NCBI RefSeq assembly: GCF_964020005.1
Contig: NZ_OZ026474.1
Coordinates: forward strand, 372,001 to 436,000
Length of the DNA: 64,000 bases
From: Spiroplasma endosymbiont of Atherix ibis
Lineage (GTDB): Bacteria; Bacillota_I; Bacilli_A; Mycoplasmatales; Mycoplasmataceae
Reading direction: 5' to 3'
Shown: positions 15,885 to 48,900 of the stretch, in pieces
Numbering within the stretch: position 1 is the first letter of the stretch
How the letters are laid out: each line of letters opens with the position of its first letter
Notes under the pieces: generated by a model
Database searches by the model: none
What the model saw: the letters and a program-made list of their open reading frames with translations, nothing else
What the model was told of the DNA's origin: nothing
Translations under genes and position numbers: made by a program

Positions 15885-16376
15885 ATGAAAAAAGCTTTAA
15901 TAGTAGTAGATTATCAATATGATTTTGCAGATCCTAAAGGAAAATTATATGTTCCTAATGGAGAAAATATTAAAAAAAATATTGAAAAAAGAATTATAGA
16001 ATATAAAAATAATAATAATTTAGTAATTTTTTCAGGAGATTTTCATCCTAAAAATCATATTTCTTTTTCTCAATGAGGAGAGCACTGTCTTGTTAATTCA
16101 AAGGGAGCAGAATTTTATGTTGATTCTTCAAAAGTAGATTTGTTTATTAAAAAAGGTACTGAATTAAACTATGATAGTTACTCAGCATTTTATATATCCC
16201 AAGATTTAGAAGTCGAATCTAATCTTGACTTGTGATTAAAGAAAAATAATATATTAGATTTAGAAATTTGTGGACTTGCATTAGATGTATGTGTTCAAGC
16301 AACTTATGATGATGCAATTAAAAAAGGATATAATGCTTTTATAAATTTTGATCTTTCAAAAAAATTAAAAAGTTAG
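15885..16376 (+). CDS. pncA: Nicotinamidase-like isochorismatase-fold hydrolase
   Basis: PncA converts nicotinamide to nicotinate for NAD salvage. The catalytic Asp lies in IVVDYQYDF (D9), the metal-binding DFHPKNHISF segment follows, and the nucleophilic Cys is C136 in CGLALDVC. At 163 aa it is 10-20 residues shorter than typical, with the C-terminal helix ending soon after the Cys region (NFDLSKKLKS). It may be full length or slightly truncated at the long T/A tract right after its TAG stop. Starts one base after hemW. Confidence 0.85.
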
Positions 16377-16408
<32 letters not shown>

Positions 16409-38972: not shown

Positions 38973-40832
38973 ATGGATCAATCGTTTAGTGCAACAAATA
39001 TGCCAATTAGTGATGTTAATATTCCAAATCCAAAACCTGATTCTAAGGAATATATACCAGATGATAAAATTTATAAACTTGTTAAAGAAAAGAACAAACT
39101 TAGGTTTTCTTGAATTGTATTAATTTATGGATGAAAGTATAAAGCATTATTTTTAAGTGTTGTATTTGTAGTTACTTTTAGTGCTTTTTTGGTAAGTTTA
39201 AATACTTTATTTTTAAGTTATGTACTTCAAGCAACAAGACAAGAAAAAGTATATGGTCTTGCTTGATATGGATGAATGGCTATAACAGTATCTGATCTTG
39301 TTTTACTTTATATATGCACTTATATTAGAAACTCTTGTTCAATTATGTTAGCTGTAAAAATAGAAGTTGAGTTAAGAAATTTAACAATTAAAAGATTATT
39401 AGAACAAGATATAAGTTATTATTCAGATAAAAAAATTGGTAAACTAATGACAAAACTTGTTGGAGATACTAATGTAATTGGAAATGAAATTTCAGGTATG
39501 ATAGCTTGAGTTATTCAAGCACCACTTGTAATTGCAATGGGAACCTCAACTTTATTTATTTTACATTGACAATTAGCTTTAATAGCAAGTTTGTGTGTTT
39601 ATTCATTAGCAATTTTAGTTATACTATTTTCATTGCAATATCAGAAAAAAGTTAAAATTGTAAGAGAAGTAATTTCAGATGTTAATGGAGATGTTATTGA
39701 TAGAATTGGAGCAATTAAATTAGTAAAAGCAACAGGAACTAGAAAATATGAAGAATCTAGATTGAATGGTTTGCATGAACCTTATATAAAAGCTTTTAAA
39801 CCAATTTCAAGAATTGATGGAACTTTATTAGCTATTTTAATTGCCTCTGATGTTCTTATAAATTTAATAATGATAACAGTAGCAATTTTATTTTTTAATA
39901 ATTCAGAAATGATGAATGTAACTTTACCAGCATTTATTTCTGCAATGATAGGATTAACTCGTCCATTATGACAAATAGCTGCTATTATTCCAGGTCTTTC
40001 AAGAGCATCTGCTTCTTCAAGACAAATATATGAAGTTATTGAAAAAGAACCAATTTTAGATGATAAAGATAAGTCAGTAATTTTATTCGATGAAAATATT
40101 TCAAAAATAGAGTTTAGACAAGTTAAATTTAATTATCCTGAAAAGCCAGAAGTAAATATTGTTCCAAAGTTAAATATTACTCTTGAAAAAGGAAAATCTT
40201 ATGCTTTTGTTGGTGAAACTGGAAGTGGTAAGTCAACTATTTCTAAATTACTTTTGAGATTTTATGATCCAACAGAAGGATGTTTATTAATCAATGATAA
40301 AAATATTAAAGATTTTAATTTGAAAAGCTACTTAAGTCATGTGGGCTATGTTGAACAAGAACCTTCAATTATTTTTGGAGATGTTTATGATAATGTAAGA
40401 TATGGTCATTTTCAAGCAACAGAAGAAGAAGTTCATGAAGCATGTAAAAAAGCTCAAATTGATCAAATAATTAATAGTTGACCTTATGGATATCAAACAA
40501 TTTTAGGAGAACGTGGGTTACTATTGAGTGGTGGACAAAAACAAAGACTTGTTATTGCAAGAATTTTATTAAGAAATCCTGAGTTATTAATTCTTGATGA
40601 AGCTACAAGTGCTTTGGACAATATTGTTGAAAAAGAAATTCAATCTCAATTAAATGAATTAATGAAAGAAAAAACATCAGTTATTATTGCTCATAGATTA
40701 AGTACAATTAAAGATGTAGATCAAATATTTGTTTTAGTTTCTGGTAAGGGAATTGTACAACAGGGAACTTATAAAGAATTAATTAAAATGCCAGGTAAAT
40801 TTAAAGATTTACATGATGCAGGAAATTCATAA
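38973..40832 (+). CDS. ABC exporter half-transporter (membrane domain plus ATPase)
   Basis: 619 aa. A 50-residue polar leader, six membrane spans (about residues 55-370), then an ATPase with Walker A GETGSGKST (414-422), signature LSGGQ (518-522), Walker B LLILDE and the H-loop His in IIAHRLST. This is the layout of type IV lipid or multidrug exporters acting as dimers; no partner gene is adjacent, so a homodimer is likely. Substrate unknown. Ribosome site AAAGGAA. Flanked by terminators, so it is monocistronic. Confidence 0.93.
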
Positions 40833-43326: not shown

Positions 43327-45771
43327 TTAAATTTTTTTAATAGAGTTAATTTGTCATGAATCTTCATTAATCTTTAAGACTAAATTAACTTCATAATTTA
43401 TATTCGCTTTAGAAAAGGGATCTTTATAAGTTGTTCTATAAGTTATAGATTGTTGCTTATTTGTATCAATATCTGAGTAATTTATTATTTTTGTTTCAAA
43501 ATTTTCATTTTCTATTAGTTTTTTATAAATATTATTAGAAATATTCTCATTTATTGTTTGAATATCTGTAAAACCTCTTGTAAGATCATTTAAAATATTA
43601 ATAATTATTTCATCATCAAATATTTTTTCAACTCCTGTTAATAAACTATTATCTCTAAAATTTGTTTTTTGATTACCATTTTGATCGTAATCTGTTCCTA
43701 AAGCATACATTGCTGCTTTTGAACCTTTAATATTTTCATTAATATCATTGTCTTCTATTTTTAGATACATTCCGTTTTTAGAATAATAAATTATCATAGC
43801 TTGTAGTGCATTATATTTTCCTCACTCATTTGTGCTATTTTTCTTATATTGTACAAAATTATTTGAACTCTTATAATAAAGAGTATAGTTATCGTTAACT
43901 AATTCTTTAGACAAAATATCTAAACCAGTTCTTAATTTCTCTGTATTTATTTCTTGTTCATTACCATTTGAAGCAATATTTTTGTATATTAAATCAATAA
44001 TATCTATAATTTTAATTGAAAGAATGATTTCTTCATTAAAAATAGAATATAAAGTAATTTCTTTTCCAAATAAATCTTTTAAAAGAGTTGAATTTTCATC
44101 ATAAAAAGCATTAAACAAATGTTTTAATTGTTCTGTTGTTTGTTCACTTACTTTTAAATTAATTTCAACTCCCACTTCTTTTAAACTCTCTATTACTTTA
44201 TTTAATCCACTAAAATCAGAGTTATAGCCAAGTCCATCTCCAATTACTCATCTAATTAAATTTCCTACTTGACATGGTCCAATACCTGTAAAAGATCAAC
44301 CTTTTCAAATAGCTACTCCTTTTCCGATACCATATAATAAAGAAGAATAATTATTTTTTTCACTAGTTCAGATCACAGAAGGATTTAGGTTTCATAATAG
44401 TGAAAATAAATTTATATTTGAATCAATTTCAGTAGCTTTTTGTCCAGAATTAAACAACATATAAAATAGTTTTTGAAGTTGTTTTCCATTGGCATTTGTT
44501 TTTACATTTATAATTGTTGATATATTTTTAAAGAGAGTTTCAGTTTTGAATCGATTTTCCTTTAAGATTTTATTATTTATTTCTTCTAAAAATTCATTAT
44601 TTGATGTAGTAGAACTAAATAAATTTTTATCATCTTCAGGAACAAAATCAGAGAAATTAATTGAAGAGATATATTTTAAAAGTCCTGAAATTATAAATAA
44701 AATATCAGTAATGTTTTCAGGAGATTTTAATAAAGAAAATAAAACTGACTTAAAATCAAAATTACTAAAATTAGTATTTAAATTTAAACTTTTTAAAAAG
44801 TTACCCAATAAATCCCCTAAATCTTCATCAAAATTTTTACTTAATGTTTCATAAAGATTTGAAGAATTAATTATTTTATCTTCTTGGTTTGTAACTCTTG
44901 CTAAAATATTACTAAAACGATTTAAAGAAGAGTTCAGAATCATTTGCCCAGTTAATTCTTGTTCATTTTTATCTTGTGTAAGTAATTTATTAATTAATTC
45001 TTCAATTAGTATATCTAAACTATTTAATTTTACTTCATTTATAAACTCTTTAACTCATTTTGTTGTATTTGCTATATTTTTTTCTTTATTTGAATTTTCA
45101 AAATCTGAATTAAAGAAATTTTTTAAAATAGCATAAAATAAATTTGATTGTTGTAAAAAACCTAGAATTTTTGTTAGAGGTTCATTTGTTTTTTTAATTA
45201 AATTTGAAATAGATTTTAATAATTCACTATTTAATATATTTGCCAAATCATCTTTTAAATTTAATTGAGGTAATAAACCTTGAATTAAACCTGAAATACT
45301 AGGATGAATTCCTCCATTTGTTTTTAAAATACTAGAGAATAAAATAAATTTTGAAGAAAAATCATCTGTTGAACTATTAGGAGATTTAACATTTTTTGTT
45401 AAAAAATCACTATTTAAAGAATTAATTGAATCTCTGTCAAAATTTTGATTTGTAAAGTATGTGTCTTTTAAATTTTTCATTGTTGTTTGTGCATCTGTTT
45501 TAAAATTTGGAATAAGTTTATTTGCTTTTGAGTTATTAATAAGAGAGTTTAAATAGTTTGAATCATATGCAAGAGTATCAGAATTTGCATTTTGATTTTG
45601 ACTTGCATTTTGAACCATAGTTCCTCTTAAAAGAGTTGAAGAAATTTCAACTAAATTGTTAATCTTATTTTTTATTGATTGAGCTTTATAATTTACTAAA
45701 CTGCAAGATGCAACAGTAAAAGTTGAACTTATTAATGCAAAAGCTGAGATTATACTTAATAATTTTTTCAT
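43327..45771 (-). CDS. Large surface lipoprotein
   Basis: 814 aa. The N-terminus MKKLLSIISAFALISSTFTV is a lipoprotein signal; the lipobox VASC gives lipidated C23. The mature protein is Asn/Leu/Ser-rich with many TGA-Trp codons in the region 44170-44400 (for example VIWTSEKN, WKGWSF), which suggests a folded, aromatic-rich domain after a helical N-terminal part. Start ATG at 45771 has GGTGA eight bases upstream. It is divergently arranged with the giant permease, a common pairing of surface lipoproteins with FtsX-type ABC systems in spiroplasmas. Stop TAA at 43327. Function unknown. Confidence 0.85.
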
Positions 45772-45867
45772 TTTTTCACCTAATATGCATATTATATTTA
45801 TTATTTGCAATAAATTATTTTTAAAATACTAAAATATTTTTTTATTTTTAAAAAATTTTTTTACGTG

Positions 45868-45894
45868 TTGTAAAAAAAAAAAAAAAACTATAAT
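45868..45894 (+). promoter_or_regulatory. Permease promoter with a 16-A spacer
   Basis: A -35-like TTGTAA at 45868-45873 and a perfect -10 TATAAT at 45889-45894 are separated by 15 bases made almost wholly of A; the run of sixteen A spans 45872-45887. A change in run length would change promoter spacing. Confidence 0.55.
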
Positions 45895-45914
45895 ATCATA
45901 CTTAATTGTAGTCG

Positions 45915-48900
45915 GTGGATAAAATAATTAAAAAATCAATATTTTTATATTTAAAACAAGGAATAAAAGGTGTTATAAAATTCAAAATACAATTTATTGT
46001 AATTATTATTTTGAGTTTTTTAGCTTCTTTTATTTTGAGCGTTTCTTTATCATCAACAAAAAGAATTAGTGATGACTATCATAATACAACATCAAAAATG
46101 AATCCATTTGATTATGTAAGTTAAAAAGTTGTTAATGTTAATTCTTCTGATGTTTCTGGAACAGATATTATAGATCCTATGGATATAATGAACAGTCAGT
46201 TTATTTATTCAATAGATTCAGAAAATCCAACAAGTAAAAATAATAAAGCACTTGATATAAATTATAATTTGAGTTTTTTTTCAGAAAGTAATTTAAGTGG
46301 ATATAATCAAAAAACTTTTTTGACAGAAACTTTTGAAGATAAAACAGTTCAAGAAAAATTTTTAAATATGATTACAGATTCAGATTATTGAAAAGATATA
46401 TTTGGTTATGAATATGATCCTGAAAAAGACTTATCTACTTGAGAACCTTATAGATCTGTTAATTATTGGTCAGATGCTACTTCTTTTACATATTTAAAAA
46501 AAACTGCAGCTAATCATGCTGGAAAAATTAGTAATTTTTATATTTATATAATTGAAAAATTAAAATAAAATTATTTAAAAGACTTGTTTTTTGAAAATGA
46601 AAGTATTCCAAATTATATTAAAAATACTTTATTTTATGAACTTAAAAATAAAGGTTTTATAACAGAAGAAAATTTTAAAATGAATATTGCAAAAGTTGAA
46701 TATGATAATGAAAATAAAAATCAAGTTATAAGTATATCTGATAATGGAGATAATGATATTTATAACAGATATTTATATTTTTCTCTTGAAGCTTATTTAA
46801 GACAAATAATTAGAGCAACTACAGAATATCCAGCATATTGAGTTAATCAAGCTATTATTACTTCAAAAGATTCAAAAGAAAGAAAAGATATTATTAAATA
46901 TTTTAATGATTTAAATGAAAATAATAAAATAGGTTTTAATTTTATAGATAGAAATAGTTCAGAATTACAATCTGATCTTAAAAATTTTGGAGTAACTATT
47001 TTTACATGAATTTTTGGTTTTAAACCAGAAATTCAAGGATATGATAGTGTTGAAATAAAAAAAGAATTTATAGTAACTGAACAAAATACTCCTTGAAGAA
47101 ATAGTGTAGATATTTCTTTAAAAGATGATAGTTATCAATATTTAAAAAGTAAAAAAGAAGTTTATGACAAAGGAATGAGAGGATCTCTTACTCAACTTAT
47201 TGTTAATAAAAATAATAAAAATAATAATATTATTAATGTTGATAAAACTTTTAATACAAACTATTTAAGACATTTTGAAAATTCAAGTATTGATAAAGAT
47301 CTTGGAAGATGATCTAATTTTGACGATTTAGATTATTATGATAAACATAGCTATGAAAATATTAGTAGAATAAAAGGATATTTTATGAAAAATGAATTAC
47401 TTGCAAAAGTAACAAATTTTGATTATAAAGCTAGAGCTGAAGTTGAATATACTGATAATGTTTCTGAAATTACTTATAGAATTGTTGATATTGAAAATCA
47501 ATGAAAAAACTCAATTACTTTATATGAAGGTAATTTGCCAAGAACCTCAAATGAAATTCTTATTAATACACAATTTACAAGAGCAAATAAATATAAAATA
47601 GGTAAAAATATAAAAATTGGAGGAAATAATTTTGTTATTTCTGGATTTGCATCAGAACCATTGACATATTATCCAATTGCAAATACTACAAATCCTCTTC
47701 CAAATAGTAAAAAAAATGCAATTATATATGCAAATAAAAATAACTTAGATAAGATAATAACAATAGATTTAGATAAGTCCACAACAAAGATAGTTTATTC
47801 TTTTTTAACTTATAAAAATAAAGATAATCCTGAAGATATGCAAAATGATATTGACAAATTTAGAGCATATTCATTTACAAACCTTGTTTAAGTATATAAT
47901 TCTTATGAATTTTTAACTGGGAAAAGCGAATTTAAGGAAAATAATATAATAGATAAATATAAAAGTTTTTCTTCTAGTAATTTAAAATTAAATTGACTTA
48001 TAGCACCTAAAATTATTTATGGTTTTAAAATTTTTTCCATTATTTTTTGTGTACTAATTTGTTTAATTGCAATATCAGCTGCAATTATTGCTATTAAAAA
48101 AACTGTTGAAATAAATGCTGGAGAAATTGGTATATTAAAGGCAATGGGAGCTAAAAGTTAAGAAATTTCTTTATCATATTTATCATATGGGATAATTGTT
48201 ACATTATTTGTAATTCCTTTTGCTTGAATTGTGGGTGCATTTGTTCAAGAATTTATAGCAAAAGTTTTTATATAATTCTCTGGTGGCCGTTCAAATATAT
48301 TAGTTTTTAGTCCAATAGCAATTGTTATTTCTATTTTATGTTTTGGAGTAATTTTATGTTTAATTTCATTTTTTACAGCTTTTATATTAGTGAAAAGACC
48401 AACATTAGAAATAATAAACAAATTAGAGAAAACTAAAAAAATTTATTGATTGAATCAAGTTAAAAATGCAGTAGTTAAAAATAGATCATTTTCAACAAGA
48501 TTTAGTTTAGAATTAGCTGTTTCTGGTTTATCAAAAACTATTCTTTCTGCAACAACTATATTTATGGCTGGATTCTTAGTTTCTTTTGGTCTGACTATTC
48601 CAGGACTTGTTCAAAATGTTGTTGGAAGTTATTATAAAAATGTTCTTTATTCAAACTACTATGAAAATAGAGATTTAATAGGTAATGCTCCACTTGCAAA
48701 AAACTCTTTATCTCCTACAAAAGAAGTTGATGAATATGAAAAAAATTTAATTGACAGTAAATCAATTTTTGGTTCTGGTATTATCAATATTTCTAAAAAT
48801 GTAACTGATTTTGCACCAATACCAGATGCTTCAGCAATACCTCAAATTTTACTTTCTCAAAATTCTTCAAAAGAACTAACTGCAAAATTAATTTATGATT

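Follow-up and report, generated by a model that had tools for sequence, protein, structure and literature searches.

A sixteen-A promoter spacer before a decayed giant permease gene in a Spiroplasma endosymbiont: a candidate for vlp-like length-dependent transcription

The locus raises the question of whether a homopolymeric run between the two hexamers of a promoter could act as a switch for the gene behind it, as in the vlp genes of Mycoplasma hyorhinis. It is situated in a stretch of 64,000 nucleotides (the window) from a Spiroplasma endosymbiont of Atherix ibis, designated G000 here; other genomes are denoted in the same way. A sequence-only reading had described the site as TTGTAA, sixteen A and TATAAT, followed by a GTG start codon of a surface-transport operon. 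Direct reading of positions 45868-45894 gives TTG-T-A16-C-TATAAT (Table 1). The run of 16 A between TTG and TATAAT stands, but one of its ends had been counted twice: the AA of TTGTAA belongs to the run, a C precedes TATAAT, and the spacer from TTGTAA to TATAAT is 15 nt (14 A and the C), not 16. Compared with the sigma-70 consensus the -35 hexamer matches in 4/6 positions and the -10 hexamer in 6/6. A generic sigma-70 scan, which takes spacers of 16-18, did not have the site among its matches, 15 nt being short for a spacer of this kind. The run has the length of the homopolymer, about 16-20 A between -35 and -10, that is characteristic of a vlp-type promoter. Dinucleotide shuffling of the window, done 100 times, gave an expectation of 0.00 for the composite motif; bare A16 runs, of which the window has 4 against 0.45 expected (3/100 shuffles reach 4), are above expectation, though not extremely.

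Table 1. Coordinates of the features discussed (window positions, except for the last line).
Feature	Position	Strand	Remarks
-35-like element TTGTAA	45868..45873	+	TTG at 45868-45870; final AA shared with the A run
A16 tract, putative promoter spacer	45872..45887	+	exactly 16 A
-10 element TATAAT	45889..45894	+	single C in front
Ribosome-binding-like motif GGTGG	45914..45918	+	overlaps the GTG proposed as start
Broken giant FtsX-type permease gene, about 1,770 codons	45915..51237	+	frame reading, orthologue comparison, Pfam
Divergent lipoprotein gene	43327..45771	-	frame intact; own TATAAT about 20 nt before ATG
TATAAT of the divergent lipoprotein gene	45791..45796	-	direct reading; separate from the A tract
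Second A16 run, TTAT-A16-CTAAAAA	43296..43311	+	just past the lipoprotein gene end; without good -35 or -10
C5 cytosine DNA methyltransferase gene	L089:198-1448, genome about 719,197-720,447		intact 417-residue frame in G000

The gene behind the site is a broken one. Read from the GTG at 45915, the permease frame contains six in-frame TAA codons (46122, 46566, 47889, 48159, 48273 and 49968) and one frameshift between about 50614 and 50723; TGA is used as Trp in this genome, which, like its gene content, points to a mollicute. The Pfam domain FtsX (PF02687) was found in both halves of the permease (E 8.9e-06 and 1.1e-13). The giant FtsX-like permeases of mollicutes (MG468 type) are very long proteins with FtsX domains; great length and the FtsX domains are common to both, whereas the G000 gene is broken and an adjacent ATPase was not found. 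The GTG is unconvincing as a start, as it lies inside the GGTGG motif and relatives start further on. The start position of the orthologues is 12 nt 3' of it, after a GG-rich ribosome-binding-like motif (in G019, GGTGG and then ATG 8 nt later), and at this position G000 has a codon other than ATG, GTG or TTG.

Long orthologues of the permease are present in 15 genomes of the genus, G000 included. The nearest relative, G019, with 71-73% identity in the permease, also has a broken gene, with one frameshift and two TAA counted; the one stop which can be placed in the alignment falls in a column different from those of the G000 stops. G018 has one TAA. The other 12 orthologues are free of TAA and TAG inside their best match, a second, paralogous match in G013 having one TAG, and the permease is intact in G007, G009 and G017. 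It was considered that TAA might be recoded as an amino acid in G000. The residues found in 13 aligned relatives opposite the six stops are mixed, mostly Glu, Gln or Ser, which argues for decay and not for recoding; recoding is further ruled out by the lack of in-frame TAA in most orthologues. Because the gene has decayed, a flip of the promoter would yield no intact protein in G000, and the intact surface gene which belongs downstream of a vlp-type promoter is not found here. What was designated a "surface-transport operon" is in G000 a decaying FtsX-type permease gene, and a co-transcribed unit is unproven: no obvious partner ATPase was found adjoining the permease among the eight proteins scanned, and between the permease and the ABC exporter at 38973-40832 stands the divergent lipoprotein gene. 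A paralogous giant permease is found at genome positions 973569-977922 (L056, L058); it is TAA-free in the matched parts, and immediately 5' of its ribosome-binding motif there is an A16 run, which is not part of a promoter spacer.

The layout of the site is found again at orthologous permease genes. Five species of one clade have TTG-(T)-A(n)-(C, CC or TC)-[T/A]ATAAT before the permease, with n = 16 in G000, 16 in G019, 19 in G009, 18 in G007 and 17 in G017. The run is separated from the -10 element by C in G000, G019 and G017, by CC in G009 and by TC in G007, and the spacers are 15 (G000), 14 (G019), 18 (G009), 17 (G007) and 15 (G017). TTG forms the upstream edge of the tract in 5/5 of these members, and the layout stays while the flanks further upstream are largely diverged. 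The proposal of a sigma-70-type promoter with the tract as its spacer is supported, the layout being kept, at varying length, in four relatives of one clade. On a distant branch G015 has TTGAC-A16-G-TAAACT before the permease. Of the two tandem permease copies of G002 only one is preceded by a run, a T18, and no tract was found before the permease in eight genomes (G001, G003, G004, G005, G008, G010, G013 and G018), so that 9/15 orthologues are without this promoter type. The simplest account would be that the clade had the tract from its ancestor and that it was lost once later, on the branch leading to G002/G001/G004/G010; in the protein tree, however, the branch uniting these four with G000/G019 has a support of only 0.568.

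The arrangement also recurs at other genes and in other genomes. The strict motif TTG-N(0-3)-A13-N(0-3)-TATAAT, a pattern which fails to match longer runs, for instance in G007 and G009, gave 10 matches in 9/320 genomes of the order and 0 in the reversed control. Judged from their translated starts, the proteins behind these matches include exported or adhesin-like ones in other mollicute genera, some of which we take to resemble P97/P102. TATAAT beside A13 was rejected as a stand-alone signal, with 21 against 14 match rows in the reversed control (overlapping rows counted), and the excess over control became clear only once TTG was added to the motif. A sample of 196 A/T runs of at least 14 was then classified in six Spiroplasma genomes (G019 with 30 of its 83, the other five with all of theirs), a promoter-type placement being one in which TTG precedes the run by 0-2 nt and a -10 element (at least 5/6) follows it within 0-5 nt. 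There were 47 such placements against 1 in the reversed-flank control, and 27 against 1 when G000 was left out. It should be noted that one tract of G017 is scored on both strands in the 47, and that the 20 placements among the 60 tracts of G000 are inflated by paralogous lipoprotein copies. The promoter architecture is more than chance. The spacers are not only A runs, some being T runs on the coding strand, and the genes behind them code for lipoproteins, a C5 methyltransferase (PF00145), PTS EIIC (PF02378), arginine deiminase (PF02274) and a short-chain dehydrogenase. Roughly one run in four belongs to another type, which follows a hairpin of 6 or more and looks like the U tract of a terminator (51 such runs, and 13 in the control).

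In G000 the same layout precedes several genes of a surface lipoprotein family, as it would in a vlp-type system. Of 22 T-run sites of the lipoprotein-promoter type which were examined, most with TTGA or TTGC ahead of the run, 19 lead to a lipoprotein-like start; 14 of these 19 frames have, by reading, an interruption in their first 250 codons. In-frame TAA codons or frameshifts, as in the permease, affect most members of the family (e.g. L016, L027, L084), and gene decay is apparently ongoing in this genome. The possibility that the TTGAC-T16 sites are promoters of an insertion sequence was rejected, most of them having a lipoprotein start about 65 nt downstream. A mobile element does recur near lipoprotein promoters (L024, L027, L030 and other G000 loci); its transposase is, by reading of the frames, IS3-like and spread over two frames, and the element is a separate feature with a T14-16 run of its own at one end. 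The methyltransferase gene of Table 1 is preceded in G000 by TTGT-A16-T-TAAAAT, with the run at genome positions 720478-720493. Three further species share this promoter type, the run being A18 in G007, A17 in G002 and A18 in G018. The methylome might possibly be phase-variable, if the promoter behaves as its sequence suggests.

The lengths of the runs were counted genome-wide. The G000 genome, 1,072,050 bases in one contig, has 67 A/T runs of at least 10, with lengths of 10 (5 runs), 11 (2), 14 (1), 15 (15), 16 (43) and 17 (1), and 43 of the 60 runs of at least 14 are exactly 16. By this distribution the long runs form a class of their own, to which the A16 tract belongs. Lengths of 12-13 are absent from G000 and also from the five relatives with comparable cut-offs. 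The numbers of runs of at least 14 and of at least 17 are 60 and 1 in G000, 83 and 34 in G019, 31 and 12 in G017, 25 and 18 in G009, 29 and 23 in G002, and 21 and 21 in G007. Typical length is specific for the genome: 16 in G000, about 17 in G002 and G009, and 17-27 in G007. These sharp peaks look like a genome-specific set-point or an effect of the assembly. After these counts, the length differences between species were rejected as proof of switching: they cannot be read as on and off states because they largely follow a genome-wide set-point, and for switching at this site they are weak evidence.

Within a genome, the promoter-type runs do not stand out in length. The mean in G000 is 15.87 for promoter-type runs and 15.65 for the others, and there is no difference in 5/6 genomes; in G007 the promoter-type runs are shorter, 18.7 against 21.7, with a p of 0.038 uncorrected for six tests. 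As length is nearly uniform whatever the context, it may be set by mutation and not by promoter function. Length does vary among copies of the mobile element: at one of its ends, runs of 14 and 15 occur between identical 200-nt flanks in G000 copies, and the end runs of 12 copies are 14 once, 15 seven times and 16 four times. A comparison of two subcultures of one S. turonicum strain reports one 1-bp homopolymer indel, for which a sequencing error is possible (PMC5034139). The window also has a perfect T16A16 palindrome without a G+C stem at 16377-16408, directly after the stop codon of the gene 15885-16376; further T(n)A(n) palindromes are T15A16 at genome position 580914-580944 in G000 and T17A16 at 434026 in G019.

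We consider it probable, at about 0.62, that the site is a vlp-like sigma-70-type promoter with a homopolymer spacer, in which slippage alters transcription, and that it is one of a genome-wide class. Replication slippage in living populations would add or remove A's in the spacer, the distance between -35 and -10 would shift by one base per slip, and transcription would move between stronger and weaker states, so that the length of the run would set expression wherever such a site is used as a promoter. At the permease of G000 the switch, if working, would idle, with no intact protein as product. The same promoter type stands before an intact permease in G007, G009 and G017, and genome-wide, candidate A- or T-run promoters precede lipoprotein genes, the DNA methyltransferase and transporters. 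On the opposite strand the tract is a T16 which, lying upstream of the divergent lipoprotein gene on the coding strand of that gene, could be its terminator or a leader element; the T16 is, however, about 100 nt upstream of the lipoprotein ATG and outside the lipoprotein TATAAT, and a terminator scan found no stem-loop there, which makes this very improbable. A lipoprotein gene divergent to the orthologous permease is also present in G007, G009 and G017.

The promoter might instead be constitutive, with the A tract as a rigid, bent spacer which is kept for strength or DNA shape, length changes switching nothing of importance. Promoter function alone would suffice for conservation of the tract, the orthologues have spacers of 14 to 18 (with an intact gene at 15 in G017), and run lengths are equal in places which are not promoters. 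The same layout is nevertheless found before surface lipoproteins and a methyltransferase, which are typical contingency genes, and since some spacers are T runs on the coding strand a single requirement for shape does not fit; we regard the constitutive promoter as rather unlikely. It is also conceivable that the runs are a by-product of mutation, growing to an equilibrium specific for the genome wherever selection allows, with promoters and terminators as permissive places and the length of 16 in part an assembly effect. The sharp length distribution of each genome, the absence of runs of 12-13 and the many runs in terminator-like places would agree with this. For neutral runs one would expect neither the 47 to 1 excess of placements between TTG and a -10 element nor retention at orthologous sites despite diverged flanks, and such a by-product seems improbable. 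The reading as a promoter with a slippage-prone spacer remains the one we prefer.

Among the mycoplasmas of vertebrates, the surface of which is exposed to antibodies, phase variation is a familiar phenomenon; Spiroplasma live in insects and other arthropods. A search of the open-licence literature found no report of phase variation or of a homopolymer promoter switch in Spiroplasma. We tentatively suggest, and hold it to be possible and not more, that a clade-wide contingency system new to the genus may exist, with many A/T-run-spacer promoters (lipoproteins, a DNA methyltransferase as possible phasevarion, sugar transport, arginine deiminase) held at a genome-specific set-point. If so, single-base slips would switch promoters one by one, and because run lengths are at such a set-point altered slippage or repair could move many of them at once. 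Were there a conserved set of homopolymer-spaced promoters, that of a DNA methyltransferase included, one would have to ask what purpose such switching serves in an associate of arthropods. With its broken gene the A16 permease locus is ill suited for a test, and the intact methyltransferase and the lipoprotein promoters would be better loci.

Several known systems can be compared with the site. In Neisseria meningitidis a homopolymeric adenosine tract in the promoter region of nspA is reported to influence a phenotype (PMC6389960). N. meningitidis is a Proteobacterium, and the likeness is that of a homopolymeric A tract in a promoter region. The vmm gene of Mycoplasma mycoides has a repeat inside the promoter spacer which changes in length, as is the case here; unlike ours it is a dinucleotide repeat, and it is described for one gene (Persson 2002, via PMC10502178). 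The closest parallel is vlp of M. hyorhinis: these surface lipoprotein genes have a homopolymeric A tract in their promoter region, and changes in its length set transcription (Citti and Wise 1995, via the review PMC10502178). Spiroplasma is another genus, its candidate promoters have T as well as A runs and precede non-surface genes (methyltransferase, arginine deiminase), the A16 copy stands before a broken permease, and switching is here what we infer. The two have in common the class Mollicutes and a lipoprotein family that carries homopolymer promoters, and the parallel drawn by the sequence-only reading is strengthened in that the layout recurs ahead of a methyltransferase gene and of many genes for surface proteins, the kind of context in which the vlp switch is found.
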